From Antedon bifida (Eukaryota; Echinodermata; Crinoidea; Comatulida; Antedonidae), in assembly GCA_963402885.1 (NCBI GenBank), contig OY727099.1:9970001-10034000 (forward strand): 64,000 nucleotides of DNA, in the 5' to 3' direction. Every line of letters starts with the position of its first letter. The stretch's first letter is position 1. The notes beneath the pieces were generated by a model. That model saw only the letters and a program-made list of their open reading frames with translations. It ran no database searches and was not told where the DNA came from. A program made the position numbers and the translations under genes. Positions 18,561-41,457 of the stretch are shown piece by piece.

Positions 18561-20444
18561 ATGCCGTCTGGGAGAAGGTGGAACCAAACCCTATTGGGCC
18601 TGCTTGTTGTCATGTTTCTGCTGAACACGTGGCTTATGAGGACAGTTAATTGGATGGGTGAGTGAGCAGGATGATGACGCAACACAACATAGTTAACCAA
18701 TCACATGCGACAGATCAATTGTCGCTCGTGATTGGTTAAAAGTGTGTTGCCTCTTTAAAGATGACTTTGGGGCGATGACGACTCAATCACGATGAGTTTA
18801 TGGTAATTGAAGTTGTTATGACGTAAACAAACTGAGTTGGTCTAATATAAAATATTCATTTCAGGTAATCTACCATGCATGACCAATTCTTTGAAAATCC
18901 AAAGACAAGATTCTAATACGGGTAAAAAGGTAAATGTTACTATAATTTTGAAGTCTTTTATATACTACTATACACTCTTTTCTTTTGTTGATATTTTGAC
19001 ACAAGGCTGTGTCTGAATCATTGAACAGCATTTTAAAGTTATCAATTTTATTGTTTTTTAAACAGGGTAACTGGCAGTCAGACCTGATCGGAATTCGAAG
19101 TGAGCATCGGAAAGATGGTATGTTCCGTGTTTTAAGTTTTTTCAAGTTGTCAGGTTTTACAACTTTTAAAATAAATGTAACATTCTGAAGCTGTTCCAGA
19201 GTGGTTTATGTCTCATAATTTTAAAAAGCAGCTCAAGCCGTTGCGTCAAAAACACGTTTATAAAAATAGATCAATTTTATCTTATTTTAGGTTTCCTGAC
19301 AATAGGTATCCCAACGGTCCATCGTGATAAAGGCTTCTACATTATCGACACACTTCAATCAATTGTTGATAACACGTCTGAAGATGATAAGAAGATGTTA
19401 ACAATTATTGTATTTACCGCCGATTCCAATACAACCTACAACCAAAAAGTCTTTCAAGAAATCAATACAAAGTTTGCAAGTTACGTCACTTCCGACTTAA
19501 TACGCGTCATCGATACTCCGCGTAGTTACTACCCGGATCTTTCGAATTTAAAACGCAATTTCGGCGACAGTGAGCAACGTGTTGTCTGGAGAACAAAACA
19601 AGTTCTAGATTATTCATATCTCTATCAGTACTGCAGTAATTTATCAAAGTATTATTTACAGCTTGAAGATGACGTCAAAGCTAGTCCAAAATTCGTGCAA
19701 TCGATTCAAGAATATATATATATAAATAAGAATGAGAACTGGAGCGTTTTAGAATTTTCTGAACTAGGGTTTATCGGGAAGTTATTCCGCTCAGCAGATT
19801 TAAATCAGTTTCGAGAATTTGTCTTAATTTTCTACGCTGATCAACCAATAGATTACTTGTTAAAGTATTTTCAGATACTGAACGGACAGACGAAATCGCT
19901 ACTACGTGTTCCTTCTTTGTTCCAACATATTGGAAGTTATTCGTCATTGCAAGAAAAACAACAACCGCTTAAAGATCGATTCTATGAGGAGAATATTCGC
20001 GCGCATCATTCAGCAGACAATCCGCCAGCTGATATTTACAGTAGCATATCAACTTTTAGTATGTACGCGCCAAAATTAGCATATACAGACGATCCGGGGT
20101 ATTTCTGGGGACGTGTGCCAAAAGTTGGTGACGTCATTCTAGTTATTTTCCATGAAGCCGTCCGATTGAAGCGGGTACTTTTCCAAACTGGTTCATCTGA
20201 TCATCCTCAAGATGTTCTAAACAGCGCCATCTTAACCGTTGGGAGACAAGTATTGAAGATGGGTACTTCTCCTCCGTTGTGTCAAGACGAGGTTGAGTTG
20301 GATGTGTTCAAAGATGGCAAGGTAGATGTAAAGAACATAGACGATAAAATAAAGTATGACGTGGCATGCTTGAAGGTTTTGGTTACTGGAACTCAGTCTC
20401 AATGGGTGGTGCTCCGCGAAATAGATGTTTGGGTGCTTAAGTGA
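18561..20444 (+). CDS. MGAT4-family N-acetylglucosaminyltransferase (GnT-IV)
   Basis: MGAT4 enzymes are Golgi type II membrane proteins; active members add a beta-1,4-GlcNAc branch to the alpha-1,3-mannose arm of N-glycans. Exons 18561-18657, 18865-18929, 19066-19117 and 19291-20444 give 455 residues. A short basic tail and one anchor (about 10-26, LLGLLVVMFLLNTWLM) precede a stem. The catalytic part has family blocks GIPTVHR, SYYPDLSNLKRNFGDS, VWRTKQVLDY, LQLEDDV (acidic metal-binding EDD at 197-199), EFSELGFIGKLF and SLFQHIGSYSSL. The C-terminal part (FWGRVPKVGDVILVIF; GSSDHPQDVL) matches the carbohydrate-binding-like tail. The N-terminal anchor resembles MGAT4C more than A or B, but subfamily and activity are undecided. 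The large last exon carries most of the domain. Confidence 0.93.
18672..18766. mobile_element. MITE family B, degenerate copy
   Basis: Hairpin core AACCAATCACATGCGACAG against CTCGTGATTGGTTAA with worn outer arms. It begins immediately inside intron 1 of the MGAT4-like gene, about 15 bp from the donor. Confidence 0.6.
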
Positions 20445-20811: not shown

Positions 20812-20962
20812 AGCTTTGTTCCCACTTGGAAGCAACACAATGGCGTAGGTAATTGAGTTGACCAATCAAAGGGACAATTTGGATAATCCATCGCGTCGTG
20901 ATTGGTCGAATTATTTGCGTTTACATCCTTGCGTTGGTACTATAGTGGGAACCAAACTTAAC
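20812..20962. mobile_element. MITE family B
   Basis: Ends TTGTTCCCACTTGGAAGCAA and ATAGTGGGAACCAAACTTAA, centre GTTGACCAATCAAAGGGAC with TCGTGATTGGTCGAA. Arms partly decayed. Confidence 0.82.
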
Positions 20963-21834: not shown

Positions 21835-24800
21835 TCATTTTCGGTATACATGAAAATGATAACATTGATATTGCAAATGTATATGATGAGATATTTCGTT
21901 AAACATTTCGCATGTCCATGTCAGCGTTCCATACTTTGATGATGGATTCGGATAGACATTCAACACAATGCAATCTTTAGTGGCCATACACATCTTGACG
22001 CAACGAATTTTAGACCTAACGGTTTGTGACTGTATGTAAGAACCTTGAAAACAAACGCCCACATCTGTGATACGAATGGCGGTATCACCACCTGTGTAAT
22101 AAGACAATGTTTGAAATATTTAATTGATGTCTAATTTGCGCCCCGTATCATTAATTATTTTGAAACTTGTTAATTGGTCTACTTGGCTTTACCCTCAGTT
22201 TTAACAACTTTGTTATCAATATTGCCAATTAAGATAAATAAATCGATAAATTATTGATTTATAATCAACTACTGATCGATCACAAAGCAAGCAATTCTCT
22301 TATAAAAAGCCTATTATGCCTAAATAATACATTGATCGAGAGCAGGCAACATACCAATACGATTAGCCTCCTCTGCAGGGCAATCACTACTGGGAAGCTC
22401 TGATGTTATATGTGGAGTTGAGATGGCAGAAGTTGTTAGTTGTGTTGTCGTGACGTCACCTGTGCTGGCTTAATTATATTAAATGTATTCAGTACTATTT
22501 AGTATATTGTTTTGTAGTGATCATTGATTTCATTCAATACATTTAAAGAAGTAATGGACCTACCAACTACTGCAGTTGTTTCCAAAACCTCAGCACTGGG
22601 AAGTGATGTCATATCTTTAGTTGTGACGACAGAATAAGTCGTTGGTTTTTTAGTTGTGACGTCACTGGTTGTGGCTGTAAAATGCAAATAATTATAACAA
22701 TATACTTAATAAATTCGAACGCGTCAACAAATAAGTTAAAAAGACATAAGTTACACGAGAGGTGTTTAATTTCAAAATCGTGTTTGATCATTACTATGAA
22801 ATTCTAAATTTGAATCTCATTTGGATATCCTCGTAAGGTGGTTTCCCGATTAATCGTACGATCAAAATGGTACTGGGTATGATCAACTAGCGTTCGTGTT
22901 CCCACCTAATCATCCATTCGTAGAAGTACTGATGAAGATATCAATCTGTGGCGACAATAGAATGGACCCGAGGTGCTTAATTTCAAAATCGTGTTTGATC
23001 ATTACTATGAAATTCTGAATTTGAATCTCATTTGGATATCCTTAAATGCAGTCAATCGATTAATAATCAATACTGAAGATATGTCAAACGGTAACGGTGG
23101 TGGTGAAAACAAAATGACCATACCAATCTTAGTAGTCTGTTTGCGAGTTGTTGGTATATCTTGAGTAGTAGTTACTTTCTGAGTTGTTGGAACTATTGCT
23201 GTACCGCTACCTATACAATAAAAAGGCACGAATTGCCCGAGTTACTTCACTAATATCGGAAACCAATCCGATCATTAATCCTTACCAGTACACTCCTCTT
23301 CAATATTCTTTACGTATAATTATCATTTTCTATTTACTTCAGAAATTTTACATCCGTATAATACAATAGTCAATTATAAAATTATCAATAAATAGGCCTT
23401 TAATGACAATTCGTTATTAGCGATATTTGATCGTTTTTGTTAATAATGAATAAATAATATAACTACAGTATTGTTAATAAAAAACCAGCCTATGCATACG
23501 TACCTTTTTGGCAAACAAAAGAATTCAATTCCGAGCAGTCAGTTGTATACATCTTTTTGTTTACTTTTAGCTTTGCACAGTCTTGAAATACAAACAGTTA
23601 TATTATTCAACGCATATTATTTACAAAATGTCTACATTCATAATGTGTTCTTAGCTGCATCTCCAGAGTAAATTTCCACGTTTTGTTGCGCATCTAGCCT
23701 ATGCTCCAGACGGCGATTCGGCTTAATATGCGTTAAAATAAAGAACATTTTGGCACACGTGGCATGTTGTAACTATACTTTCAATACGCTAAAGAAATAA
23801 CAAGAAATTGTTACTTGCGAATTGCTCGTATTCTTATAGATTTCATTATCTTTAAATTGTATATTATTTGACTACGTACATGAACAGACCTAATGTGTAA
23901 AGTGTCCAATAAACACATCTCTTTCAAAACACATGCAGTCGGCCGTCGGGCATCCGACATAATACAACTTGACAATCACTCAATTACTTTTCTACAATTA
24001 ATTTCAAATTATTTCAATTCAAAAGTAAATGCGGCGGCGCACTGCGGATTTAGCGTCATCATCTTACCTCCGTCATCTGATTTGTGTTCCACTGGATCTC
24101 CATTGGGTTGTACAATCCATGACAAAATAGAATTCTAAACGTAAATGTTGGTACATAGAAAAATTATGACAAATCAAATCGTTAGGCCTACTATACCACA
24201 TTTGTAAATTTGTAATACCGTACTCAACGAATACCGATATCGTATTGTGGACAATTTAAGTTGAGTATATACATTAGTATAAGTATATATTAGGATGTTT
24301 TCGATGGCGAAAGAAGAGTATCAAATTATTGGTCCTACTACAATTTAGGAAAGAAAATGTGTACTGGGTTGGCATGCGCTGGTGTCACATTCATTATCTC
24401 TATAGGCCTACATGCGATAAAATGTTAGTATGTACAATAAGTGAAGCGATGGGCAGCTATCATGCAGATAACCATGACAATATTGCATCTTCGTTGTGTA
24501 TGTAGGGCATTGACAATAATACGAAATAATCCTCAAGGAAGAAGAAAAAATAGAAAAGAGATTAAACTAACCAGTCTGTAGTATCCAATCCAATCATATT
24601 GGTTTTTGTGTAGTTTTGTTACTGCATGTGCTTGATCGGTGCTCACGCCTGCTAAGTTCGCACCTTCCGACTCACAATGTGTCTGCGAGTCTTGCCATGC
24701 TAGAACCAAAATGTATCATCAATAACCGGGACTCGAACTTTACCATTTATTACCATACTCTATTCTAGTACGTTCAACTCTTTTCACCCTTAATGCGATA

Positions 24801-26433
24801 GGGACGGGGGTTGGGGGAGGGGTGTCACTAAAAAGATCCCATAATATATGCATTCTCATTTTGTATGCACCACCATAACATCTAAAGACCAGTGGCGTAA
24901 CGTAAAGGCCTGAGGCTGGTTTAGGAACCCTAAGTGGCCTCCAACGCTGGAAGCCTCGGGCGTTTTTAGCCTTTTCGACATATTTTAATACCCTTTTCCT
25001 CCTCTGTGCACTGCTCAGGGGCCCCATAAGCTCAGCCCCCTCCCGGGTTTAGCCCAGTGAGCGCTCATAGCCGTTAGGCCACTGCTGAAGACTTTTATAA
25101 TAATATGCTTTGCTGAGTATACATTAGGTTTAGTTATTTTTAGTATCATAATTTCTTTAGTCAACGATGCAAACATAATAAATGAAAAGCCCATTATAGT
25201 CTGAGATGCTCTCAAAATTAACGAAGAGACAATATCATAATAACCGTAAACCAATCGAATAAGAGGCTCAGTCGAATCGTGGGTATAGCAAGTAATTACA
25301 GCAGTGAATTAAAACCAAAGAACACCGCGAATCAATTTCAAACGATAATGCTCAATATAGGCCTATTTGTTGGGCTGAACCAACACTACCAAAGATAAAA
25401 TTGCAGTCTGTAAAAACATGCGTCGCAATGGAATAAAGCTTGGTTCCCCGGACTTGGGGACGCAACGTAAGGACGTGAGCCCATCGTAAAGCTCTGTCTA
25501 CACTATCAAACTAGTTTGACAAAAAAAGTGTGATGTGCCCAAGTATGTCAGTGATATGCCCAGATATGGTAGTGGTATGCCCAAATATGGTAGTGATATG
25601 ACGTCATCATGTCCATATATGGGCACAACACATTTTTTAGTCACATAAAGTTTGATAGTGGAGACAAGGCTTAAGTAACTTGACCAATCCCAACGCGGTG
25701 CACATCATCCGAACTGTTTTGTGATTGGTAAACTCAATACGCCTACAGTACGTCGCACACAATCGTATAAACGTCGCATGAATGATACCTTCCATATTGT
25801 CGCACTTTTATACAGTAATGATATTTCGTGTAAGTAGTAGTAGGCCCAGTAAGTTACAGTACTTACTATTCTGAATGTCATATGCTTTAAAACAAACTTC
25901 GCCAATCAACGTCCAGTCCGGTTCACAACTTGTAGAAATAACATGCAATATTGGTAGATCAATACCTAAAATGGAAACATTAAAAAACGTCATATTTGTC
26001 ATTTCAATATTGCAGTTCACCAACTAGGCCTATAGTAAAGCGTGGTTCCCACACTAGAACGCAACGCATCGACGTATCGTGCTGTATTGCGTAATCACAA
26101 GTGGGAACCGACGACACAACATCACGCATACGGGGGAAAACACAATTATTGGAAGGGCATTTTCTTACGTTGCGTAGGTTACGTTGCGTCGTCGGTTCCC
26201 ACTTGTGATTACGCAATACAGCACTTTGCGTCAATACGTCGCTGCGTTGCGTTCTAGTGGGAACCAAGGCTCAGGTATATTTACGTGCGAATCTTTTGGT
26301 AGGGAGACGCAATGGTGTGATTTAGTTTGACAATAATTGCTACCCATTTTTTTTACAATAATGTAACTTTGAGAATTAATTATTTAAAAATCAACTTACC
26401 TAAAATGATTACTACTACTGTGCAGAAATGCAT
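21835..26433 (-). CDS. Secreted C-type lectin / mucin-like linker / PAN protein, paralogue 1
   Basis: Nine exons: 26400-26433, 25867-25965, 24572-24699, 24068-24134, 23504-23581, 23124-23210, 22564-22674, 22355-22468 and 21835-22091; 324 residues. The signal peptide starts MHFCTVVVIIL. A long-form C-type lectin domain spans about 25-135, with CEPDWTLIGEVCFKAY, HCESEGANLAGVS, DWIGYYR, a QPN where EPN/QPD sugar motifs occur, and the final Cys pair in DCSELNSFVCQK. Three Ser/Thr-rich exons form the linker (about 136-239); the last two share a DVTT and an (S/T)S-LPS phrase. A six-cysteine PAN/apple-like domain follows (GVCFQG, RCVKMC, DCIVLNVYP, WTCEMFN, YQCYHF). The canonical WND Ca2+/sugar motif is missing, so sugar binding is uncertain. 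An in-frame ATG lies 8 nt further upstream in another frame and hits a stop, which decides the start. Confidence 0.86.
22760..23044. repeat. Direct repeat, 74 bp, two copies 211 bp apart
   Basis: Copies at about 22760-22833 and 22971-23044 share AATTTCAAAATCGTGTTTGA and CTCATTTGGATATCCT with two or so differences. Both lie in the intron between the first two linker exons of paralogue 1. Confidence 0.88.
24890..25084. mobile_element. MITE family E, hAT-like, 195 bp
   Basis: Ends CAGTGGCGTAACG and CGTTAGGCCACTG, near-perfect inverted repeats. Flanks CTAAAGAC (left) and CTGAAGAC (right) match at 7 of 8, fitting the hAT 8-bp target duplication. GC-rich interior unlike its surroundings. It lies in an intron of paralogue 1. 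Confidence 0.8.
25437..25764. mobile_element. MITE family B split by a family A element
   Basis: Left part 25437-25486 (AGCTTGGTTCCCCGGACTTG) and right part 25675-25764 (CTTGACCAATCCCAACGCGG; TTTTGTGATTGGTAAACTC) are the two sides of one family B copy, interrupted by family A. Confidence 0.82.
25487..25674 (+). mobile_element. MITE family A, copy 6, inserted in family B
   Basis: TAAAGCTCTGTCTACACTAT at the left, TTTGATAGTGGAGACAAGGC at the right. It holds three consecutive internal units, the most in the window. Confidence 0.92.
26037..26270. mobile_element. MITE family B, long nested-hairpin form
   Basis: Outer ends GTGGTTCCCACACTAGAACG and GTTCTAGTGGGAACCAAGG. Inside, 40-bp arms at 26081-26120 and 26183-26222 are inverted copies with one mismatch, themselves carrying GTGGGAACC. 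It lies in intron 1 of paralogue 1. Confidence 0.85.
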
Positions 26434-26916
26434 ATTTCCATGCGGTTGTTAACGTTCACGACTGACAGTCATCCAGCACTCACGATCTGTCAATTAAACA
26501 ATAGAAGCACAGCATTTTCATACAATTAAAAAAAACGACGATGGCGACGCACTTTTTTACGACCACTAATAGTTATCTAAAAGTTATATAACATCAATTA
26601 CATTAAATCAATAAAATAACGTATGTGTAATCATAATAATGATGAACATCATTGACTCAACGCCAGTGCTGAATGGTCTCTCCTGGTAACATGATAAATA
26701 TGCTAATTACCCAACCAATCAAATCAATTCAACCATTTAAGGCGATACGCGATATGTGAGAAGCAAAAACAAATAAAAAAATACCGTAAATAAATAAATA
26801 AAAATTATGCAGCATAATCCGATAAAATGAAAGCATACAGCCAAGAAATAAAAATGTACCAGACAAATCCGTAGGCCTATAGGTACGTAGCCAGAATAGA
26901 GGGCTATTTATTTAAC

Positions 26917-26968
26917 CAGGGAAGAGTTAAATTACTTAATAATTTATTATTAATTTAACTCTTCCCTG
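26917..26968. mobile_element. MITE family C, 52-bp palindrome
   Basis: CAGGGAAGAGTTAAATTA against TTAATTTAACTCTTCCCTG. Both flanks contain ATTTAAC, offset by one base, consistent with target duplication. Confidence 0.7.
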
Positions 26969-27685
26969 ATTTAACTGAGATCCCAGATTTAATGACAAGG
27001 CAAACATGGTAACAGGAGGGAGCCTCTGACTGTGCTTGCCATCGAAATACTCAACTCAAAAAGCATTGATTTTAACTTAAAAGTTTGACCTGTTGATTAA
27101 TGAAATATTTTATTTTTTTAAAAGTAATATGGCCTAAAAAATAAACCTGCAATATTTTATCGAGTATCTTAAGATATAGGGAAATTCTATATAATACAGT
27201 GTTACATGCCTGCTTAACTTTACCTTAATAAGACGACTCATGTGACATGCCTGTGACACTGTATTTCAGACTTTGCCTATCACACGGGCCAAATCACGCC
27301 ATATGCGGAGATACAGTACAGAATTGCAATGAATCCATCCACGCTTTCTCAGCCTCCTGGCCAAACACAATAATGATTCTTTAATTGTTCGTGTCGGCAC
27401 AATCACTGCATGAATATAAGTCTATACACACACATGAAGTAAAAGTCATAATCATTGTGCGAGTATGGAATGCAAAAACCGCTAAAAAATACAATTACAC
27501 AACGTACGTGATACGTATTTACTTTTACAAACACACGTCACATGCTACGTATTTACTACATACACACAGCGTGTAGTAAGGACAAGACTTAAACCGCCAA
27601 AATACATATATTACATGACTATTACATTGTAAGTCAAGTTTAAGGACACACTTTATTTAGGTACTTTGGTATTAACAATTATCAG

Positions 27686-27719
27686 GAAAGAGTGAAATGA
27701 TTCTTCACTCTTCCCTGAA
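27686..27719. mobile_element. MITE family C, ~34 bp
   Basis: CAGGAAAGAGTGAAATGA against TTCTTCACTCTTCCCTG. No clear flanking duplication. Confidence 0.55.
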
Positions 27720-28215
27720 AATATTATGCCTATGGCTAAAGGACAAATGACACACGTTAATATCCGCAACTTCTATTAATTTTCCTTTAATTTCCTTTTT
27801 CAAAAAAGGCAATTATAAACGCAAAGCACATTTGGCTAATATATTTAAAATTCTAAAATCTTATTACAACCCTGAATATCTTTGAAACATTATTAAAATT
27901 GATTGAGTTTCTCGACAATTTCCGTTAGTGGCTACAGTAAATTGCCTTAATAACTATCTATTGTATTAGTTAAAAGAGTTGGTGTTTTAAAATGACCTTT
28001 GACCTTTTTTTGGACACGTTTTCCATGAAAAATTCAACTTATAAAAGGCTTACAGTATTGCAATATTAGAAATGTAAGAGACAATAAAGAACAGTTCACA
28101 TGTATTTAAAGTTGACTGTATATATACAAATGATTTGATTTAATAAATTGTATAGTTTCAAGATCATCATCAGCTAACCATGCCCTTTGCGTTCCCAAAA
28201 CCTCAATTTAACTCA

Positions 28216-31200
28216 TTAATTTGCTGGATCTATAATGGCCCTCAGCGGCGGCAACTGGTTGTCACTCTTTAATTCATCGTCATTGTCAATTGAATGTCTT
28301 ATACTATAATGATAACACCCAGAGTGTTCTTTTGTCGAAGTTAGCGTACCATCAAACAAGTTGCAGATGAACGTCGGTTTAACATACGGGTAACTGTTGA
28401 CTGACGTACATCCTACGGTCTCCATACATAATTTGACGCAGTATACACGAGACGATACAACGAACGTCGACTGAGGGAGCCCTTGTACGCAGATTCCAAT
28501 GGCGGCTGAGCGTATGGCGTATGACCCTATTAAACATAAAATCATAACTTTAGTGTTTCAGCAAAGAGAATAATATAATGATAATTCCAGTTTATTTAAA
28601 TTTGGTTCCCACTCAGACGCAACGCAAGTGATTTGACCAATCACGACGCGATGGATTAATCGAACTCGCCATTGGTCAACTGGTTTGTGTTGCGTCTACG
28701 TCCCTTGTGTTGCGTTCTAACGGGACAATCAAATCATTGCACTAGTTAAACCATGTGCATTAAAGAAGTAATGAAAAACGATTTTTTAGTGACCTACGTG
28801 TAACACGTGTAGTGGGTGTAGGCCTTGTAGTAGCAGGTGCAGTTGTAGCAGGTACAGTTGTAGCATACGCAGTTTTAGCAGGTGTTATAGCAGGTACAGT
28901 TATAGCAGGTGTTGTATCAGGTACAGCTGTAACAGTTGCAGCTAGTGTAGTAGCAGGTGCAGTTGTAGCAGACGTAGTTGTAGCAGGTTTTGTAGCATAC
29001 GCAAGTGTAGCTAGTATAGTAGCAGGCGAAGTAGTAGCAGATGTAGTTGTAGCAAGTGCAGTTGTAGCAGGTGTGGTTGTTGCAGCTGCAGTTGTAGCAG
29101 CTGCAGTTGTAGCAGGTGCAGTTGTAGTAGCTGCAGTTGTAGCTAGTGTAGTAGCAGGTGAAGTAGTAGCAGATGTAGTTGTAGCAAGTGCAGTTGTAGC
29201 AGGTGTAGTTGTTGAAGCTGCAGTTGTAGCAGCTGCAGTTGTAGCAGGTGCAGTTGTAGTAGCTGCAGTTGTAGCTAGTGTAGTAGCAGGTGAACTAGTA
29301 GCAGATGTAGTTGTAGCAAGTGCAGTTGTAGCAGATGTAGTTGTAGCAGGTGTAGTTGTTGCAGCTGCAGTTGTAGCAGCTGCAGTAGTTGTAGCAGCTG
29401 CAGTTGTAGCAACTGTAGTTGTAGCAGCTGCAGTTGTAGCAGGTGCAGTTGTAGCAGGTGTAGTTGTGGTCGTTAATGCCGCTGTAGTTAAAGATATCAC
29501 TGTAGTTACGGATGCCGCTGTAGTATGGTGTACAAAAATACTAATTAATGATAACACACTGGTGGATAACAATATATGAACAGTCATTATTAAGTGATGA
29601 AGTTTAAAAAACTCACCCTTTTCGCAAATGTAACTCGTCTCAAAACTGCATGAAACTGACTCCATCCTTCTTTGATTTTTAAGAAGTAATACACAATCTA
29701 GAAATGTAGATTTAGAGATAAATGCATTACATATGTTTCACGTAAAGCAGTCATTGAATTCATCGTTTTTGTTGATGGTGAAATGTTTTCCCAATTTTAT
29801 TTCTAACCTTTGTGTAGATCCCCGTCAACGAAAGTCAATTGCGTTCCTCCTGGATCTGACAGCCAAGTATAGGTATGAACCTATTTATAAAAAAAAAGAA
29901 TACGTACAACAAAGGTAAAACAAACGCGCCCGTGTAAAAAATATCTAATACTTACAACAATACTCCGTGTATACTCTATGATGTAAATAAAATCCTAACC
30001 TAACTCGATTCCTTTGCTAACAAATTAGGAATTAGGCAGAGCGCTGTACTTATTTAAGCCGATTTTCCACTAGGCGAATTTGTTCGCGCAAATCGAAGGC
30101 TTCAGCTAATACGCATGCGTAGAGAACGATTTGGAAGATGTAAACATGAATACGCATTCGTACAAACTGGCGCTTTCAATTCGCGCGAACAAATTCGCCT
30201 AGTGGAAAATCGGCTTTATTGCGATAATTAGCTTACTTACAATCTTATACATTCCTATGTAAGCGTAATTCGGTAACATCATGGCAGAGATGGCTGTTAC
30301 GCGTTCTTGGTTCACTCCTGCGACAACCCCACCTAACTGGCCACATGCGCCTGCAGCGTATCCAAACGCTGTACAAATAAAACATAACGAATGAATGGAC
30401 CAAAAGAACATTTGCAAGTTTTAAAACAATTCTACCTCAAACAATTGTGGAACAGAGCATATACATTGTATTAAGGTGTTTATACTGTATTTTTGTATAG
30501 TATATAAAAATAGTTTATTATGATTATTATTAATTTTTATATGTATACACTGGTTATGGAAATGAAATGATTATTATTGTTGTTAAATTACCTTTTGCGT
30601 TTGTGAAAACTCTGAAACATTGGTTGTCGACAGGTGTCCAGTCCGGATCACATGACACGGCATTCACGGATGATCTATACATCACGATCACAACTGAAAC
30701 GATAATGGGTACATGATACAGGCACACATGTGAGCCTGAGATGCTGTATTACGAAATATTCCTATGAAACTGGGAAAATATCGTAGTACACGTGGAGATA
30801 CAGCACTGGTAATCGGGTAAGGTAGTTACTCTTCTATGGCTATTCTCGAAGACGTGACACAAGTTTATCTAAAAATGTACTCTCAAGCTTGGTTCCCACT
30901 AGGACACAACGCAAGGACGTAAGACGCAACGCAGGCGAATAGACCAATCAAAAGCAATGGATTATTTGAACTGTCGCTTGTGATTGGTCAATTCCCTTGT
31001 GTTGCGGCTTACATCCTTGCGTTGCGTCCTAGTGGGAACCAAGCTTTATGTGTGGTTTACAAGATACAAGATAACTTTATTGTCAAATAGTTCATCAACG
31101 AAAGATTTGAAATTAGTTTTTCTCATGGCAACTTAATAAAAATAGAATAAAATCAGTAAAATGTTAAAACACAGAGTAAAATACACATTTCATGTCTTGA

Positions 31201-31443
31201 AACACAAGTTACTTTTATACTGGTTTAAAATTAATGAACTACATATCAATATGTGTGGTTTAGTAAGCGTTTCTTTATCGAAAAACAGTGTAGCTTTTCC
31301 GTACAGGTTCTATGCCTACCTAATTTAAACTTACATCAAGAACTAAGTTTGATTACACAAAATAAACAACTTTAAAAAAAAATTAACTACTTACTTTGAA
31401 GAAACGCAACAATCCGCCGACAGCGCATCATGTTAGCATTCAT
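28216..31443 (-). CDS. Secreted C-type lectin / long mucin / PAN protein, paralogue 2
   Basis: Seven exons: 31395-31443, 30592-30693, 30241-30368, 29808-29880, 29617-29697, 28798-29517 and 28216-28526; 487 residues. A signal peptide precedes Cys31. The lectin domain (31-143) has CDPDWTPVDNQCFRVF, ACGQLGGVVAGVNQER, AYIGMYK, TWLSDPGGTQLTFVDGD and the closing SCSFETSYICEKG. The 240-residue linker is almost pure Thr/Ala/Pro (ATTAAATTT-type), a mucin-like O-glycosylation target, all in one 720-nt exon. The PAN-like domain (385-487) has GICVQG, YCVKLCMETVGC, FICNLFD and GCYHYS, with an extra acidic tail. The linker donor was taken as GTAGGT at 28797, because it alone keeps phase 1. Sugar motifs EPN/QPD and WND are absent. 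Its upstream region is occupied by a family B MITE. Confidence 0.85.
28600..28728. mobile_element. MITE family B
   Basis: TTTGGTTCCCACTCAGACGC at the left; TTGTGTTGCGTTCTAACGGG at the right; centre TTGACCAATCACGACGCGAT. It lies in the intron between the linker and PAN exons of paralogue 2. Confidence 0.88.
28798..29517 (-). repeat. Coding minisatellite in the mucin exon of paralogue 2
   Basis: Built from a GTAGCAGGTGCAGTT-like plus-strand unit. A higher-order block of about 130 bp (running through the Pro-Ala-Thr-Thr-Leu-Ala-Thr-Thr phrase) recurs two to three times nearly unchanged. Repeats keep multiples of three. Confidence 0.9.
30056..30216. mobile_element. MITE family D, 161 bp, perfect 34-bp inverted arms
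   Basis: Arms 30056-30089 and 30183-30216 are exact inverted copies beginning AAGCCGATTTTCCACTAGGC. TATT flanks both sides. It ends 24 bp from the lectin exon at 30241. Single copy in the window. Confidence 0.9.
30890..31048. mobile_element. MITE family B, best-preserved copy
   Basis: AGCTTGGTTCCCACTAGGAC and GTCCTAGTGGGAACCAAGCT are exact inverted ends. Centre ATAGACCAATCAAAAGCAAT pairs with CGCTTGTGATTGGTCAATT. It lies in intron 1 of paralogue 2. Confidence 0.93.
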
Positions 31444-31468
31444 CTACAGCATCAAGTGATCGCAAGCA

Positions 31469-31622
31469 TTGGATTTCCATTAGGACCCAACCAACAAGGA
31501 CGTAAGCGCACCAATTTGACCAATCACGGCACGATCAATCATCCGAACTGTCGCTTGTGACTGGTCAACTCGCTGCCGGAGCGCTTACGTCCTCACTTTG
31601 CGTCCAAGTTGGAACCAAGCAC
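31469..31622. mobile_element. MITE family B at the 5' end of paralogue 2
   Basis: TTTCCATTAGGACCCAACC and GTCCAAGTTGGAACCAAGC ends, with TTGACCAATCACGGCACGAT in the centre. It ends 25 bp from the paralogue 2 start codon. Confidence 0.87.
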
Positions 31623-32373
31623 AATTTTGATATTGATCACGTGACTCTTATTCTTTATTAATTTCATTTTGTTTAATCATTGCTAAACTAAACGCGATTT
31701 TTAATTTATTTTCTATAAAAAATCACAAAGAAAGAGCACTACAGATTATTACATGAAAACCACTTAAATTGTGTTTGCTATAATAACATCAAAATAACCG
31801 TTTTACCATTATCGCTGGCCCTGAGCAAACCATGTTGAGATTACGTAGGTTGTTCATTTTATTGTTAACTGCAATTATCGCTAAAAAAGAGTTGACGTTT
31901 AATTAAATCAAATAAAAGATGGTGTTGAAGTAATGTCAAGTAGAAATGTCAACGCTTCCCTGGTAATCACATTCAATGCGTTTATTCATAAACCTATGAT
32001 AATATTAATGTTTTTATATCACATAAGTTTAATATACACGTTTTAATTGTAATTAGTTAGCAAAACCTATATGCAATAAGGAAACAATGTCTTTTTTAAA
32101 CATTGTACAAATAGTTTTCAAAAACAGTATTATGCCTATCCATTAAATGGACGCATTGAAGGCATTACGTTCTATTCTACATGTTTTTGTTAAATGTTTT
32201 ATCAATTGCTTACTACAACCATCATACACATTTATTTGTCTTTTGAATTAGGTAAAGGTAAAGCTTTCCTCAGATGTCGAATCCTCCATCAAGTCATCGC
32301 ACCGAAACAATACAAATTCAACAAGTTTATATATAGCAAGACCATCGATCATTACACCTCGCATGCACTAAAT
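31623..32373. other. Intergenic, paralogues 2 to 3
   Basis: AT-rich, nothing recognised beyond the 3' flank of paralogue 3. Confidence 0.55.
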
Positions 32374-35300
32374 TTAGAGTGTACTCAATTTATAATGGTA
32401 ACACCCCGAGTGCACTTTTGTCGAAGTCGGCGTGCCATCAAACAAGTTGCAGATCCACGTTTGTCCATCATGTGGGTTAATGTTCACAGACGAACATCCC
32501 TGTACCGTGTTCACTCTATGGCGCTTGCAGATGTTGACGCAGTGGATATGAGATGGTACAACGAAAGTCGACTGAGGGAGACCATCTACGCAGATCCCAA
32601 TGCTTGTTGAACGTATCGCATATGGACCTGGTGTACAAAATAGAGTACTGAAACTTATAGATAGTACTAAAAATATATATTATTAATATACGAACAATAA
32701 CTAATTGCATATGCAATGTAGGCGTACATTGGTTTGTATTATATCGATTTTTATATCAGAAGAATAAACATAAAAGTGACACCATACCTGTAGCAGATGT
32801 TTTGGGGCCATCTGTGATAGTTGATGTCGTGTCTTGAGTTGTGACGTCATGCGTGGTTGTGTGTTCTTCAGTGGTCATTGCGTCCTCGGTAGTAGTCAAC
32901 ACAGATGTTGTATCTTGAGATGTAACGACGTCGTCAGCAGGCGTTGTTGGGTCACTTGTCGTCGTGTGTTTTATGCATTCTTCATCCACTTCGTCCTCCT
33001 CGGTGTGCACTTCGTCCTCCTCGGTGGTAGTGGTCAACATAGATGTTGTATCAAATTGAGTTGTGATTGCAAGCGTTGTTGGTGATGGTGTTTCTGCTGC
33101 TGTATGTACAGTAAATGTAAACAGTTATTAATATTGTATTATATTTATCGCAATATACTTCATTGGTTGTGTGAGATGGACATTATCACAATACTTCCTG
33201 GGTTGTGACGTGAAATGGACATAGAAAATAGTAAAATAAGTTAGAATGAAAATCGAAAGTCTAAAATAACGAAGAGGAATTAATTCCTATAAACAATGCA
33301 ATCCGTCGTGTAGGCCAGTTTTTAGTTTTAGTAAACAAAGTATACTACATAAACATACAAATTGTGAGTACTGATTTAAAATATAATAAAAGAAACAGCT
33401 ACTTTTTAATACATTTCTTAATATAAAGTAAATGATAAATAGTCGTACTTTTAATATAACTTGCAATAAACATAAAATGTACGTTTTTAAAGCATACTTT
33501 TACTCCATCGATTTTATGTACATGTATAGATATAGTGCCTTTTTAACTACTCTATTGGATTTTATTGTTTTTATATTTTTACAAAAATGTATGTATAATA
33601 TACATAATATATATTAGTAAAAGGAATGAATGAATGTGGGTGACCCCCACGAAAGAGAAAAAAAAACAAAGTATACTAAAGTCAAATAATTTCATGAATT
33701 GAGAAACTAGGCAACTATAAGTATTAATTTTTTCATACAATTCAATTATACATACATTCAATATTAATTAATTTCTATCAATGGTAAACAATATAATAAA
33801 AAAGTGGTAATATATAATAATGAAACAATACAACAATACCAATAATAGAGGATCTTGCAAGAAGAGATTTCTTGTCACGCAAGACCCACAAAGAGGTGTT
33901 CACATACAAATATTATTTCAAAACCAATGTAGGCCTACAAAATAAACCAAAACAAAATCTGTAGAATATCGATAAGAGATGCTTACGTAGAGTGATTTGA
34001 CAGATTCCATAGGCTACATAGGAACAGTCCTTCGATTCCATCAATAAATCAGCTTTACGTAATAGAACGCAATCTAAAGACAACAAAATTTGTGTTTGTT
34101 TATCAACCACCTCAGTTCCGCTTCAAAATAAGATCTAATTATCGTAATAGTAAAAGTAAATATTTCTGAACATCAATGTAGTCTGTGAAATGTTTCGTTT
34201 ACGATGGGACCTAAAATACCTCCTAACTTCTACCATGTGCCTATATTTTATAGGTTCATGCCTCGCATTAATGTTCTAACTTCAGTTATCTCATCGAAAA
34301 CCATCTGGTGACTTACCTTGTCCAAGATCACCATCTACAAATTCCAGAAGGTTCCCTCCGGGATCAGAGTACCAAACATACGTTTTAACCTAAAACAAAT
34401 GTCACGGAAAAGCTAATAAGAAAAATGCTCGATATAAATGAACACAACGTCCTTATTTTTAATGAATTAATTTAGATATATTAAGTGTTGTATAGGCCTA
34501 ATTAATTGCATTTATGAATATAGTAACTATCATTGTATCATAAATATATATTTTGTTGTGCTATTTGATTCGGTACATCAAGACCTACCAAACCTGCCAA
34601 GCAGACCCAATATCCCATGGCTTCATTAAACATTCGGTACGGCACATCAAAACTCACTAAATATCACTCTCAAACATACCATACAGTGGCTGAGACCCTA
34701 TATTACATGGCTTCGGCCTAAACATTTATTCCACCGTCATGCTGAATAATATGGACAAATTATTTTACTGGTAAATCTATAATATATGTGCTAATCAAAA
34801 TGTAATGTAAATAAATGAATTACAGCTAAACCACCGACAGATGTTGTTTCTTTTCTGTACCCTATCCAGGCGTTGTGTGGTATTATATTAGACACGGCAT
34901 TGGCACGAACATCATTTATGCCCGCAAGTGTTCCTCCTTCATGCAGACACATTTTGTAAGATTCGTGATAGTCTGCAATATAAAGTTCATTTTGATTTAG
35001 TTATATTCATTCGCGCGAATCGAATTTTCATCTCATTTGGAGTGACATGCATGGCGCACATCCAATCAAAACTCCGAAAAGTTCGATTAACGACAAAGAC
35101 AATAAGATCAATCAATCAAAGTAACATTTATTTTTCTTATAATTTCATTTTTTTACACCATATTTAATGAGGGTGATCCATCCAGCAATTGCTGATCATT
35201 AGGGATCACACACGATGCTCTACATAAACAAAGTCTTATTACAAGTCTTTGGGAGTGGATTTGTAATTTTGTCCTGACATCTGACGGGACTTGAACCCAG

Positions 35301-36871
35301 GACCCTTGGAGTGGTAGCCAAGCATCAAAACCATCAAGCCACAACTCCACTCATAGTAAATAAAAATTAACTATGATTAAAATAAGAGAGGCAAAATTGA
35401 GATCTTCAACGAATTTGGCGGACATTTATTCCAAAATACGATTTAATGTCATATTAGTATCTAAAATTTACAATACATTAAAAAATGGTGAAACTAAAAT
35501 AAGACAAGGTCTTGGAGGAAAAGCTAAAAGCAGAAGCAATGAAATCGCCATAGATCAGGCCTAAAGTTCTGTCTACACTATCGAAGATTTTGTGACAAAA
35601 AAAATGTGCCCGTATATGGACACGATGACGTCCTATCACTACCATATTTGGGCATATCACACTTTTTGTGTCAAACAAGTTTAATAGTGTAGACTGCAGA
35701 ACTTTAGTGATACTTAAGATCACAGCTCATCAACGAATAACACTTACTGTATCTAGTGGCTATAGACTTGAAGCATTGACCGTCGATTAGGCTCCAGCCT
35801 GAATCACATGTTGTGGCATGGGTAAACAGAAAGATGTTAATAACTACAGAAAAAACAATGATAAATTGACAAAATAATTAGCAAAACCACCACAAATTCA
35901 ACATTTATTTAGAAACATTTCAAGAAATAAAAGAAGCATACATTTATTCGTTATTAACTGTTTGAAGCATGTTGCAGGAAGATAAACTGTATTAAGTTTG
36001 GTTCCCACGAGCGACGCCACGCATTTGACCAATCACACGCGGTGGATTATTCGAACAGTGGCTTGTCATTGGTCAACTCGCTTGCGTTGCGCGTAAGTCC
36101 TTGTGTTGCGTCTGTAGTGGGAATCAACTCTCGGTAAAAATATGAAGTGTATGAATTATGAATAATCAAAATCTATAATCAGATATTACACTATTTATTT
36201 CAACACGGAAAGGCTATAGTATCACCTCAAACCAGGGCCATGGTTAACTTAGGGCCTAATTAAAAATAACACAATTAAAGAAAACAAAATAGTAGGCAGA
36301 AACATAAATTAGGCCTACAATATAAAAAGTATATATACATATACTTTTAAAGTATTTACATTTGTATGGTATTGCATAAGTTAGCACCGTTACATGGGTC
36401 TACTAATTTTTTTTCACAGATGCGCCTTACAAGATGGAACCACCTTAGCTTCAAGGCGCCTCAGATTAACAAATAACAGAACCATCAATCAAATCTTCCA
36501 GAATTAACAAGAAATTGTTGTACATAATAAAACAATAAAGCATTTTCACAATTCGAAAGAAGATCGGAACCAAAAATAAAAATTTCACTTATGAAAAATT
36601 ATATGTTAAAGAAAAATCCTTGGCTAAGATATCCTCAATAATTGAAAACAAAATAGTAGGCAGAAACATAAATTAGGCCTACAATATAAAGTATATAAAT
36701 TTAGTTTCAAGTATTTTTGTGATATTCCATGAATATAGAACCGTGGAAAACTGTTATATACGCCGTTAAAAATAACAATGTAACTCACTTACCTTGGATG
36801 AAAACGCAAAACATAGTGGATAACATTATGTTTCCAACAATACAGAGTACTCGACCAAGTACTTTGCTCAT
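32374..36871 (-). CDS. Secreted C-type lectin / mucin-like / PAN protein, paralogue 3
   Basis: Seven exons: 36793-36871, 35748-35843, 34824-34972, 34317-34389, 33987-34073, 32788-33099 and 32374-32627; 349 residues. The signal peptide runs to about Thr38. The lectin domain (39-160) has CDSGWSLIDGQCFKSI, MCLHEGGTLAGIND, AWIGYRKE, VWYSDPGGNLLEFVDGD, DCVLLRK and DCSYVAYGICQ. The linker (162-265) is Thr-rich with two acidic EEDEV phrases and one Cys. The PAN-like domain (266-349) has GICVDG, HCVNICKR, GCSSVNINP, WICNLFD and GCYHYK. Exon phases match paralogues 1 and 2, and the 73-nt exon is the same length as in paralogue 2. Sugar motifs EPN/QPD and WND are not seen. Confidence 0.85.
35160..35347 (-). 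mobile_element. tRNA-derived SINE in an intron of paralogue 3
   Basis: Read on the minus strand: a head with A-box-like TGGCTTGATGG and B box GGTTCAAGTCC, then a body of about 100 bp ending near CACCCTCATTAAATATG. The open frame across it is a by-product. Different family from the SINE at 5288. Confidence 0.78.
35565..35706 (-). mobile_element. MITE family A, copy 7
   Basis: AAAGTTCTGTCTACACTATC and GTTTAATAGTGTAGACTGCA ends, reverse orientation, one internal unit. Intronic in paralogue 3. Confidence 0.86.
35998..36128. mobile_element. MITE family B
   Basis: GTTTGGTTCCCACGAGCGAC and TCTGTAGTGGGAATCAACTC ends, centre TTGACCAATCACACGCGGTG with GCTTGTCATTGGTCAACTCG. In intron 1 of paralogue 3. 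Confidence 0.87.
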
Positions 36872-38944
36872 ACTAAATCTAAGTTACTTTCTTAAGAAAT
36901 ATTTATACAGAATTATAGTACGCAACGAAGCGAATCAATTAAAATCTCAGACTACTTAATTTCTTCTAAGCTTTTAAGTGGAATGTTCGATATTTTTTTA
37001 ATAAAACGATAGACACAGTATCGGCTATTGTAGTTATAAATGTTATTATGAGAGGGGTTGACCTTATAATCTTAATATATATTTAAAACGGCCTGTATAC
37101 AATAACCTTGTCATCCAAGACATTATTGGTATAAACCCACGCAACAAAAAATCTCATAAAAAAAACACGATAAAAAAGAGGAGACAAATTTAAGGCCTAC
37201 AGGTGATGTACAATACAGTTTCAAAAGTTGTATTTTTTCAAATTTTATAATGGTAAACTTTCCATAACAATTCCTAACGGTTGTTTTTATTTAGTATCAA
37301 ACGAAGAAAAAAACACAATTGGATACAATTAAGTGATTAGCTGCATCCATATCGTTAATACATTACATTTCATGCATGTGAACCAATATGCGTTTCGTCT
37401 ATCTTTTTTATTGTAGCCATAGATACCGTACTCAAACGAACTTGAAAAGAAGTACAGGCTTAAACGGCAGTAGCCTATGAAGAAGTCAACTTTATAATCG
37501 AATCATGGGATAGATATCAAAGCAGTAATAATCTGGAGATCGAGTAGTAGCGGGCGCGAAATTTCTATTACTCGACGTCTCAGACAGAAATCATGAATAA
37601 TTCATGAGATAAATCATGGGATAAGTTAGACAATTATAGGGGGCGCAATAATATAAGCAATATTTCTCGTACCGTCCTGTACAAGCTGCTAGTTCATTCA
37701 TTTCATGGGGTTTTTCAAGATTATGTCATGTCGGCGGATTATGTAATACGACCTATTGAAGTTGACAGTACAGATTCTAACGTTTGAGGTACGTAATATA
37801 TACTACTAAAGTTTAAAATAGTTATAGTTTTTGACTCATATATTTATCATACTGATTGACCTAATTTCCTATTCAGTAGCCTATGCGAAGAAATTAATTC
37901 ACTAAACACTGACCGGAAACGTGCAAGGACAATTACAGTTGTTTACAAATATTTTGAAGTAGCAATATTATTTTTACTATACTTAACGGAAGATACAGGG
38001 TACAATAATTTAACAGTTAAAAACATAAATCTGCCCATATCTTTTGGATGTATATTGCAACTCTTGACATATATTTTAGGGCATATTGCCAGTTAGGTAT
38101 AGATAAACAGTATTGCTGGTATACCCGATATAGCCAGCTAAGGCTTGCAATTTAAATTGAGTGTCATTATTTCCATTTCTGTATGCTAGGCCTATTTTAA
38201 TATTTATGGTATAACATAATATGTGGTAGAAACTGGATTGCTATTACGATATGCCTTCAATTTTAAATTGAGTGTTATTTAATATTGTCGTATGCTACTT
38301 CAATATTTACGGTATATCATATTATCTTGGTATATTATTGTATTTTTATGGTACAATGCATTTGTTGTATACAAGGTCAATGTCATAATACAGCCTAGTA
38401 TAATCTGTGTTTGCAAAAGGGCAAAGTTTGTGTCATTGTTTATGTGCAGTTAGGTCAAACAGAAGATATTTTTAATATTACTCGACGTCAACTTGTGTCA
38501 TATAAAACTTAGAAATTGGACGTAAGCCCGTAAGTAAAGCTTCCTCAGTTAGGCCTATATGTACTGTACGTACAGCTGTGTCCATGCATAGAGAAAACCC
38601 CATAGTCACAACACATAGTGAATTCACGGTGTACAACTATGTATTTTAATAACACATAGTTAACTTTAACGGAGTTCTTAAACAGTGGAGCACTGTGTTT
38701 TAGTATGGAGTAGGCCTATTATTATTACTCCATGGTTTTAGTACACAGTGAAATCACAGTGTCCACACATTGGGGAGAACTAATTTTCACTGTCTGAACA
38801 CACTGTTTCACAGTGTGTTCACTCTGTGGCTTTTACCAAGGGCACACCACAATCGTAGTTATCAAAGATTAACGTTAGCTTAAAATGAAATAAAAATTGT
38901 TTTTATTATCAATTGTCTTAGGAGAATATTTCAACGAGTAGTGG
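36872..38944. other. Intergenic; likely promoter and 5' UTR exon of transporter Y1
   Basis: A non-coding exon probably ends at GTTTGAG|GTACGT (near 37787); the same junction occurs before transporter Y2 (near 43171). Sequence after both donors is similar (CATACTGATTGACCTAATTT here), so the 5' regions are duplicates too. 38570-38840 is dense in CACAGTG/CACTGTG. Confidence 0.5.
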
Positions 38945-41457
38945 ATGATCATCATGACAACGAACAATCCAAAATCATCTTCCGGATATCGACCTTTGAA
39001 TGCAGCAGGCAAAATAAATGCACGTTTGATAACAATAGAACCAATTCTGTGTTGCTTTATGTTGGGAGATGGTATCTACTATGGCTTACAGTCAGAGTTC
39101 ATCCAAGGAAGAATCGCTGACATGCATAATTATACCTTGCCGAACAATAATGAAAATGGAACTTGTTCAATGAACGCGTCCAGCCCAGAAGGAAAGTTAC
39201 AAGCCGATATCGAGGCAGAGGCTTCCAACTGGGTGATGTATTTAGCAATTGCCTATACGTTTCCATCCGTGTTCATGACATTGGTACTCGGGTCTTGGAG
39301 CGACTCTGTTGGTAGGAAACCAGCTATATTAATAACGGCTGTCGGAAATCTACTTAATTTGATTATTTGGACGATTCTTGCTGCTTTAAATCTTCCATTA
39401 GAGATTCTAATTGCGTCAGCCTTTTTAAGAGGAATGAGCGGCGGCACTTCTCTGTTCATGGCTGCGTGTTTTACGTACATATCAGACGTAACTACAACTG
39501 AAAACAGAACCACCAGAATTATTGCCTGCGAGTTTGTGTTTCTGGTGTCGTTTAGCTGTGGTCAGTTCGGTGGCGGATTTCTCGTTGATCAATTCAGTTA
39601 CACGATTGCGTACACCGTCGCCATTGGTTTTACATTTATATCAATTATTTATACTACAATACCGTATTTACTCCGTGAAACTATCGTAACAAAGATCAGA
39701 TTTAAGGAGAGTATAAAGAAACAGTTAGTTGCAATCTCAGCAATATGGACAGAAAAGGACTTGGAATACAAGAAGATGTTTGTTGTTGTAAATATCTGTT
39801 TCTTTATTGCAATAAGCTGCATAGCCTCTACCACTGTAATGGCGTTGCTAACTCTTCATTTTCTAGCTCAACCATTTTGTTTCTCTTACCTGATGATATC
39901 ATACTACACTGCTTCACTTGCATTGGCTGCCACAATTGGTAAGAACAGAGAATATCTAAAGAAAATTCAATGAATTTAAAGAAATGTAATGAATTTAAAG
40001 CTCTGTCTACACTATCAAACCAGTTTGACAAAAAAAGTGTGATGTAGCCAAATATGGTAGTGATATGCCATCACCGTGTCCATATATGCCACATCACATT
40101 TTTGTCATATAAAGTTTGATAGTGTAGACAGAGCTTAAGGCAACAAACATAAAGATATTCAATCTTATAACTTTTGACGATTTGACGTATTTATTTTAAG
40201 TGTATGCCCATAGCTAAACATTCTTTGCACGAGTAAGTAAAAGGTATTTAGAACACATATCTATAATATAACCTAAAACCTTGATATCCCAGTTGACACT
40301 GACCAAATAGGACCTCAATATTAGGGGGCGGGGAAGAAGAACAATTGGCACCAAATGAAAACTATTATTTTTTACATTCTTTTTTTCTGACAGGATTACT
40401 ATTATGTGTGGTGCTATTGAAGAGATGGCTAAACGACTATTGGCTGATTCATTTAAGTATGTTGTCGGCTATTTTATCTAATTTTGTGAGTGCTATTGCA
40501 AAAACAACTACGATAGCTTTTGTAGGTAAGTACGGAACTCAAGCAGTCTGTCTGACCAAAAAGTGTGATTTCCATACGATATTGACGTTTTGAAGTGCTA
40601 TGGTTTTTTTTCTCTCTTTGGTGGGGGTGTCCCACATTTATTCTCATATGCATAAACTATACAGTCTAAATAAAATAGGGTTAGTTATAGTTTCTTGTCT
40701 TGTAATTCGAGTCATTTTGATACCGTTTAGGAGGTGGACTTGGAATTTTTAAAATGTTGTTTGGACCACCGTGTCGTTCCATAATTTCCAAGAAGTCGTC
40801 TCAAGAAGAACAAGGTAACATATAGGAATATCTCTCTCTTTAGTCTCAGTGAACACGTTCTTGTATAGGCCTACAACCGAATACAATTGAATTGAAGATT
40901 AACACAAATATTCTAATAATTCCAGGTGCCGTATTTGGGTTCTTAGGAATGGTGGATTCACTAGCTGCCTTCATCTCGCCACTTATTCTAAACAACATCT
41001 ACTCAGCGACCGTACACACAATGCCAACGTTTGTTTTTTGGATGTGTGGCAGCTTTAGTATTATACCGATTATATCAGTCTGGTAAATATAAATACTATG
41101 ATTTTATTTACGACGCACAACGCAAAAAAAACTTCAATTCAATAGAAACCGAACTTGAAAATACAAGCACTTCAAATTAAACAGACCGTGCATGTCATAT
41201 TATAAATACGCGAGCGCGTGTAAATATGTCATTTGAACCCATCACGCGGTTTTGAAAGGCCTTATGGCACACTTGTTCTTATAACCGAGCATTAGGCCTA
41301 GAGTCGATTGCTCCGAATAACATTACTGTTTTTTTCCAGTTATCTTCAGTACGAAGACATGAAAAGGCAACAGATGCTGACAATAGATCCATCAGATACC
41401 ACACCTGGCGATCCAGTGCTTAACCACGTCACCTCTAAGCAGATACCTTTCACATAG
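38945..41457 (+). CDS. SLC46-like transporter Y1 (major facilitator superfamily)
   Basis: SLC46 members are 12-helix membrane carriers; known ones move folate with protons, or muropeptides and cyclic dinucleotides. Exons 38945-39938, 40394-40525, 40731-40814, 40926-41082 and 41340-41457. Two starts are possible; the ATG at 38954 aligns with the only start of Y2 and gives 491 residues. Visible: N-terminal TM1 (ILCCFMLGDGIYYGLQSEFI), an extracellular loop with N-glycosylation sites (NYT, NGTC, NAS), the MFS loop 2-3 motif GSWSDSVGRKPA, GMSGGTSLF and FTYISDVTT. A small exon encodes a cytosolic loop (KMLFGPPCRSIISKKSS). Acceptor of the first coding exon lies near 38921. Substrate unknown. Confidence 0.9.
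39996..40137 (+). mobile_element. MITE family A, copy 8
   Basis: TAAAGCTCTGTCTACACTAT and GATAGTGTAGACAGAGCTTA ends nearly perfect. One internal unit. In intron 1 of Y1 and absent from the same intron of Y2. Confidence 0.93.

Follow-up and report, generated by a model that had tools for sequence, protein, structure and literature searches.

Three tandem genes of the crinoid Antedon bifida, here called A, B and C, each encode in one modelled chain a candidate signal peptide, a long-form C-type lectin domain (CTLD), a Ser/Thr-rich linker and a PAN/apple-like domain. They occupy positions 21835-36871 of the window, the 64,000-nucleotide stretch of contig OY727099.1 that was analysed as a whole. 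The original prediction had proposed this domain order for a cluster of three neighbours; the gene models and profile matches bear it out, and the three-gene cluster is confirmed. All the modules are known; their combination in this order (CTLD, Thr-rich stalk, PAN) was not found described in the literature searched. Whether the products act as secreted, two-headed bridging or recognition glycoproteins is, in our estimate, evenly balanced.

Gene models and candidate signal peptides

All three models lie on the minus strand and have seven to nine exons; position 21835 is the final base of the gene A stop codon, and 36871 is the A of the candidate ATG of gene C. As modelled, the chains contain no frameshift and no stop, and the introns are GT-AG. 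CTLD exon phases agree across the genes (1-1, 1-0, 0-1 and 1-1) and the linker exon phase is 1-1 in each, with the qualification that phase fit partly guided the choice of donor at two sites, C exon 3 and the B linker. Both of these donors are weak: TCT/gtcggt at C exon 3 has an alternative 15 nt downstream, in frame, that would add five residues, and the B linker uses ACAC/gtaggt. Cross-gene tblastn joins the PAN exons of A and B (E 2.7e-9) and of B and C (E 3.6e-24). With an E limit of 1, a single match fell clearly beyond the exon models (35198-35326, E 0.90) and was judged chance, hence no fourth copy is recognised in the window. Scanning the window for tRNA genes and Rfam families gave no matches.

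The candidate first exons carry the putative signal peptides: 26400..26433 in gene A (MHFCTVVVIIL/G, donor TAG/GTAAGT), 31395..31443 in gene B, starting at the first of three in-frame ATGs, and 36793..36871 in gene C, with a start codon, a hydrophobic signal peptide and the donor AAG/GTAAGT. These candidates are rarer than chance: among resampled upstream regions, a signal-peptide exon candidate equalling the best was present in 0/300 for A and in 3/300 each for B and C. Nothing upstream of A or B corresponds to exon 1 of gene C or to the DNA around it (best E 0.33).

CTLD head and Thr-rich linker

The CTLD is encoded by exons 2 to 5. Exon 2 carries the end of the signal region and the N-terminal hairpin, CEPDW...CF in A (25867..25965), CDPDW...CF in B (30592..30693) and CDSGW...CF in C (35748..35843). 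Exon 3 holds the domain core, reaching WIGYYR in A (24572..24699) and WIGY in C (34839..34972), with the B counterpart at 30241..30368. A short loop follows in exon 4, together with W..PNG in A (24068..24134) or W..DPGG in B (29808..29880) and C (34317..34389), and exon 5 supplies the C-terminal part (A, 23504..23581; B, 29617..29697; C, 33987..34073, the last reading DCVLL...C...C). Pfam Lectin_C scores 43.5 bits for the whole chain of A (E 6e-11), 28.2 bits for the CTLD part of B (E 3.3e-6) and 30.8 bits for the whole chain of C (E 5.4e-7), above the curated cut-off of 22.6 bits in all three. Each domain has six cysteines that align with those of NKG2-D, an extra N-terminal pair and four core residues, which is the long form.

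Classical Ca-dependent sugar-binding C-type lectins carry two motifs, a triplet of the EPN/QPD type within the long loop and WND ahead of the following Cys. In the alignment with MBP-A, EPN is absent from all three CTLDs and so is WND, and the loop is 7-9 residues shorter in each. The prediction of altered lectin loops is thus borne out; the sense of 'lectin' as a sugar binder is not supported, and since the sugar and calcium motifs of MBP-A are missing, the word names the fold. A QPN triplet does occur near the loop of gene A, aligned off the motif position and with no WND, and counts against the main reading. The best PDB sequence matches of the gene A CTLD are NKG2-D and other NK-receptor CTLDs, Ca-independent domains which are also of the long form, with six cysteines, a W-[IM]-G type motif and neither EPN nor WND.

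The linkers were predicted to differ strongly, and they do. Gene A has three small exons of phase 1-1 (23124..23210, 22564..22674 and 22355..22459, the third with one odd Cys), gene B a single exon encoding a 240-residue tandem repeat (28798..29517), and gene C a single acidic, Thr-rich exon of 104 residues, likewise with one odd Cys (32788..33099). Ser and Thr make up 38% of the linker in A, 48% in B and 41% in C. The B linker, about 43% Thr and 31% Ala, is built on 15-bp and 132-bp repeat periods and is the only one with a long tandem array; C has a 40-bp two-copy array. A mucin-type domain is a long Pro/Thr/Ser-rich region, usually repeated. The description as mucin suits gene B best, and A and C fit it just loosely.

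PAN tail and divergence between B and C

The terminal exons lie at 21835..22091 in A and 32374..32627 in C, each with the stop codon, and at 28216..28526 in B, where a short C-terminal tail precedes the stop. Of the two profile matches expected from the original prediction, the CTLD was recovered in every gene; PAN was not, being below threshold in B and A and absent in C. PAN_1 gives 19.3 bits (E 0.001) for gene B and 13.8 bits (E 0.053) for the gene A exon, both under the cut-off of 21.4, and PAN_4 gives 13.4 bits for B against a cut-off of 27. The gene A exon has other sub-threshold Pfam matches, p31comet (0.018, ahead of PAN_1) and MANEC (0.059). The gene C exon has no Pfam PAN match, and PAN is not listed in the whole-chain Pfam scans of A and C.

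The case for a PAN domain comes from profile-profile comparison. A three-row profile of the tails against factor XI apple domains (hhalign) scores 26.6 (P 1.6e-4, probability 50%), a value reached by 0/200 column shuffles and 0/200 Cys-fixed shuffles (shuffle maximum 21.8); the single rows score 18.4 (B), 16.9 (C) and 16.3 (A), none above the best shuffles. The cysteines of the apple domains of factor XI and plasma kallikrein, C-x3-C-x5-C and the next C, are matched by A and B; gene C has a 5-residue insertion in this pattern. Unlike those proteins, the chains here have a single module, no protease and scores below threshold to PAN_1. The PAN/apple fold is a helix on a five-stranded sheet. Two predicted models of the tail are poor (mean pLDDT 47 and 42); a PDB fold search with the first (pLDDT 47) gave nothing at E 0.001 (best match E 1.3), nor was PAN present in the best 50 of 120 rows. 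PDB sequence searches with the PAN profile and with the B tail returned no PAN protein; a nanobody (E 0.63) and a tailocin fibre (0.041, 0.12) from these searches were judged chance. Taken from sequence, the PAN identity of the tail is of moderate strength.

The PAN exons of B and C are under purifying selection (dN 0.185, dS 0.573, dN/dS about 0.32). The original prediction of fast evolution is not borne out by these values, which concern the PAN exon, the CTLD dS of this pair being not computable (NG86 yielded dS for 2/6 pairs and YN00 for 1/6). At fourfold sites B and C differ at 11/28 positions in PAN and 17/21 in the CTLD (Fisher p 0.004). The same holds at third positions, with 25/73 and 72/112 differing (p 8e-5); because some of these changes alter the amino acid, the fourfold sites make the cleaner test. 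Silent sites far less diverged in the PAN exons than in the CTLD suggest that the tails of B and C were homogenised by gene conversion or exon replacement. The ends of a conversion tract are not visible: in the adjoining intron and 3' regions, the alignment of B with C does not exceed that of shuffled sequence. Constraint on synonymous sites in the PAN exon, or misalignment of the CTLD, would give the same inequality by a different evolutionary route, with no bearing on function; the fourfold comparison has just 28 and 21 sites, the CTLD alignment has 45% identity, and no homology of B and C is visible past the borders of the PAN exon. Against this stands CTLD exon 4, gapless and 67% identical, where 15/24 third positions still differ, compared with 25/73 in PAN (p 0.018), and we regard constraint or misalignment as rather unlikely. 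Neither the minus-strand orientation nor this unequal silent divergence had been part of the original prediction.

Proposed function and related systems

In the favoured reading, the three genes are tandem paralogues, and the N-terminal head of their products would be a long-form CTLD that, since it lacks the classical calcium and sugar motifs, probably contacts its ligand (a protein, a lipid or a glycan) by another, non-classical surface. A Thr-rich stalk of 101-241 residues, probably O-glycosylated, would space the head from the PAN module at the C-terminal end; that module probably self-associates or attaches to a partner protein or glycan. The whole protein could then bridge a recognised surface to matrix, mucus or an effector. 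The copies would vary in head and stalk, and B and C would retain a similar tail under purifying selection; the lower silent divergence of the tail compared with the heads is what homogenisation by conversion or exon replacement would leave.

The main competitor for this role is a structural one, in which the proteins are components of an adhesive or mucus (e.g., of an adhesive gland) and CTLD and PAN merely help to cross-link a Thr-rich matrix. One study names lectin-like and mucin-like proteins as adhesion candidates in the adhesives of sea stars and sea urchins (PMC7037938), and the 240-residue Thr/Ala repeat of gene B and the odd linker Cys in A and in C are in line with such a role; each chain is short, however, and contains a single CTLD and at most one short repeat, and the A and C linkers are not long repeats, so that we consider it unlikely. 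The leading hydrophobic segment might also stay uncleaved, which would count against secretion. NKG2-D and the NK receptors are type II membrane receptors and are not known to carry a Thr-rich linker or PAN. An uncleaved N-terminal anchor of this kind would agree with NKG2-D as the nearest PDB sequence match of the gene A CTLD and with the long hydrophobic N-terminus of gene C, but the segments of A and B are short and signal-peptide-like, and in 3/3 models no stalk separates the hydrophobic segment from the CTLD, the Thr-rich stalk being on the opposite side; membrane receptors are quite improbable. Least probable of all is that CTLD and PAN exons end up in different transcripts, or that one or more copies are decaying: the two weak donors would allow it, and the intact frames, the phases consistent in all genes and the B-C PAN dN/dS of about 0.32 speak against it.

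Among the matches listed, no paper had a single secreted chain with CTLD, Thr-rich stalk and PAN in this order; the searches covered papers and not protein databases such as InterPro, and could not take the spelling 'PAN/Apple' as such. PAN and CTLD in one animal chain were likewise not found in the accessible portions of PMC10140915, PMC6322860, PMC3269628, PMC7037938, PMC5119243 and PMC8878817, and PMC5094078 had no match to PAN/CTLD terms. Lectin and apple/PAN terms occur together in, among others, Cryptosporidium papers (PMC10034466, PMC8710574, PMC10865969) and an apicomplexan one (PMC2575384). Some echinoderms have expanded CTL sets, and multidomain CTLD proteins of invertebrates are reported to stem mostly from species-specific domain arrangements; the partners named in the available sections are WSC, sushi, scavenger receptor, apextrin and immunoglobulin domains, and PAN is not among them (PMC10140915). 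The sea urchin Sp185/333 (SpTransformer) genes likewise form a tandem cluster, with repeats inside the coding sequence, for which gene conversion has been proposed (PMC5103432).

Extending the favoured reading, the three genes may represent a lineage-specific secreted recognition family in which the Ca-independent CTLD head and the length-variable Thr stalk diversify and conversion keeps the PAN tails of neighbours alike, different heads thus serving one common partner. The Sp185/333 proteins belong to another family and are not known to contain a CTLD or PAN. The extension is tentative and, for now, doubtful. If true, a shared tail would amount to a simple, testable design, in which diversified recognition heads are set on a common output module.

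Gene models and candidate signal peptides

Sequence reading and a scripted exon check place three gene models on the minus strand, arranged head to tail: C (36871-32374), B (31443-28216) and A (26433-21835). Their chains are open and their introns are of the GT-AG type. The outer limits in the original prediction, 21835 and 36871, fall precisely on A's stop codon and on the candidate ATG of C. In each gene the CTLD (C-type lectin-like domain) occupies four exons of identical phases (1-1, 1-0, 0-1, 1-1), linker exons are of phase 1-1, and the PAN (apple-type) module is a single exon with a phase-1 start. The donors of C exon 3 (TCT|gtcggt; another in-frame donor follows 15 nt later) and of the B linker (ACAC|gtaggt) are weak, and were picked in part because the phase fits. 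Outside the modelled exons, tblastn at E<=1 gave a single clearly separate match (35198-35326, E 0.90), which is taken as chance, and hence no fourth copy within the window.

Exon 1 of C is apparent directly from the sequence. The search for those of A and B combined a start codon, an uninterrupted reading frame and a donor of phase 1, and gave minus-strand candidates at 26433-26400 (MHFCTVVVIIL|G) and 31443-31395 (MNANMMRCRRIVAFLQ|I), respectively. When each upstream region was resampled 300 times (first order), a donor plus hydrophobic segment of equal quality turned up 0 times for A and 3 times each for B and C. The three chains would be secreted if these candidate signal peptides are cleaved.

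Lectin-like head, linkers and PAN module

All three CTLDs match Lectin_C above the curated cut-off (A 6e-11, B 3.3e-6, C 5.4e-7) and have the extra cysteine pair of the long form. The three-row CTLD profile matches 165 PDB sequences at E<=0.01; the A domain alone has 65 matches, the top one being NKG2-D, an NK-receptor CTLD. When the three are aligned with NKG2-D and rat MBP-A, none shows either of the calcium/sugar motifs of MBP-A, EPN and WND, and between the conserved turn and the DC pair they are shorter than MBP-A by 9 residues in A and 7 in B and C. A QPN triplet in A lies off the EPN position in this alignment and is not accompanied by WND. On these grounds the heads are lectin-like in fold, and would not be expected to bind sugars in the classical calcium-dependent manner; the term "lectin" in the original prediction thus holds for the fold, but not for the sugar-binding motifs.

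The linkers comprise 101 residues in A (three phase 1-1 exons, 38% Ser+Thr), 241 in B (48% Ser+Thr, 31% Ala) and 108 between the CTLD and PAN landmarks in C (41% Ser+Thr, 22% Asp+Glu). The B linker is encoded by a minisatellite (28830-29467, periods 15 and 132 bp), a possible site of length polymorphism. In addition to six CTLD and six PAN cysteines, A and C each have one linker Cys, through which a covalent dimer could form. The intron between A linker exons 1 and 2 contains a direct repeat of about 96 bp (22759-22854 and 22970-23064, 87.5% identical).

PAN is the less certain module. Pfam PAN_1 stays below its cut-off of 21.4 bits in B (E 0.001, 19.3 bits), reaches E 0.053 with the A PAN exon alone, where an unrelated p31comet match ranks higher (0.018), and is not listed in full-length Pfam scans of A and C; the C PAN exon has no Pfam match. 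The aligned PAN exons share six cysteines, and their three-exon profile scores 26.6 against the four human factor XI apple domains (P 1.6e-4, probability 50%, 50 columns). This score was reached by 0/200 column shuffles (maximum 21.8) and 0/200 cysteine-held shuffles (maximum 19.7), and the CTLD profile scored 12.8. Single rows score low (B 18.4, C 16.9, A 16.3), so the profile support comes from the three rows together. Predicted PAN structure models were too poor to be informative. In our judgement the tails are very probably a divergent PAN module.

Unequal divergence of B and C, and surrounding elements

By protein identity, B and C are the closest pair. Over 73 codons the PAN exons of the two reach 70% identity, and an NG86 dN of 0.185 against a dS of 0.573 places them under purifying selection; their CTLDs are 45% identical, and NG86 yielded no dS. 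Of the fourfold sites where both genes have the same first two bases, 11/28 differ in PAN vs 17/21 in CTLD (p 0.004); for all third positions, amino-acid changes included, the figures are 25/73 vs 72/112 (p 8e-5). Within a single duplicated gene, silent sites would be expected to diverge to a similar extent in every exon; the PAN exons thus appear younger than the CTLDs, through gene conversion, exon replacement or silent-site constraint. Dispersed repeats aside, B-C DNA similarity (blastn, E<=1e-3) covers only the PAN exon and the 13 preceding bases; the exon's flanks align no better than shuffled sequence, introns of this age being hard to align anyway. The two modules show unequal histories, and the proposal of fast evolution is not established.

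Six related repeat copies, about 68-83% alike where matching, lie in introns and between genes (20813-20938, 26043-26266, 28596-28782, 30885-31046, 31460-31620, 35992-36176). They carry TTGACCAAT/ATTGGTCAA or GTGGGAACCA, those at 26043-26266 and 30885-31046 are palindromic, and the set resembles a MITE family. Units of 21 bp close to GTGATATGCCCAAATATGGTA form short arrays at 2858-2907, 25530-25600, 59704-59753 and 60946-61003, an inverted element is common to 25487-25675 and 35561-35706, and a GAT-rich minisatellite (periods 15, 18, 21 and 36 bp) spans 58108-58522. The minus-strand stretch 35160-35350 contains GGTTCAAGTCC, which is similar to the B box of SINEs derived from tRNA; the ARAGORN scan for tRNA genes was empty across the window. 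Neighboring ORFs include one long MGAT4-type N-acetylglucosaminyltransferase (19170-20441, plus strand, MGAT4_cons 1.3e-81) and a tandem/inverted cluster of four Pfam MFS_1 transporters (38942-39970 and 43767-44834, plus; 48382-49386 and 53965-54987, minus), which we take to be SLC46-like and which by eye form two closely similar pairs. Nothing bearing on the function of the trio was noticed in the MGAT4-type and MFS-type ORFs. Intron-rich genes and the families present point to an animal as the source of the DNA.

Domain combination and possible role

Some echinoderms have expanded CTL sets, and the majority of multidomain CTLD proteins are reported to stem from species-specific arrangements (PMC10140915). 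A new CTLD arrangement is therefore unsurprising in itself. Among the matches listed in the literature searched, in which the PAN/Apple spelling is unsearchable, none was seen to describe a single animal chain that combines CTLD, Thr linker and PAN. Invertebrate database architectures include CTLD and PAN combinations, which serve as a lead only.

The same predicted domains can be read as an adhesive component, which is rather unlikely, or as a type II receptor, which is less likely still; extracellular recognition or surface bridging is favored over both, with about even confidence. Ligands of PAN/Apple modules are given as proteins or carbohydrates (PMC6322860). Because two binding modules would terminate the stalk, probably O-glycosylated, of a secreted chain, the proteins may act as bridging molecules, the CTLD end of which would bind its ligand without a classical calcium site.
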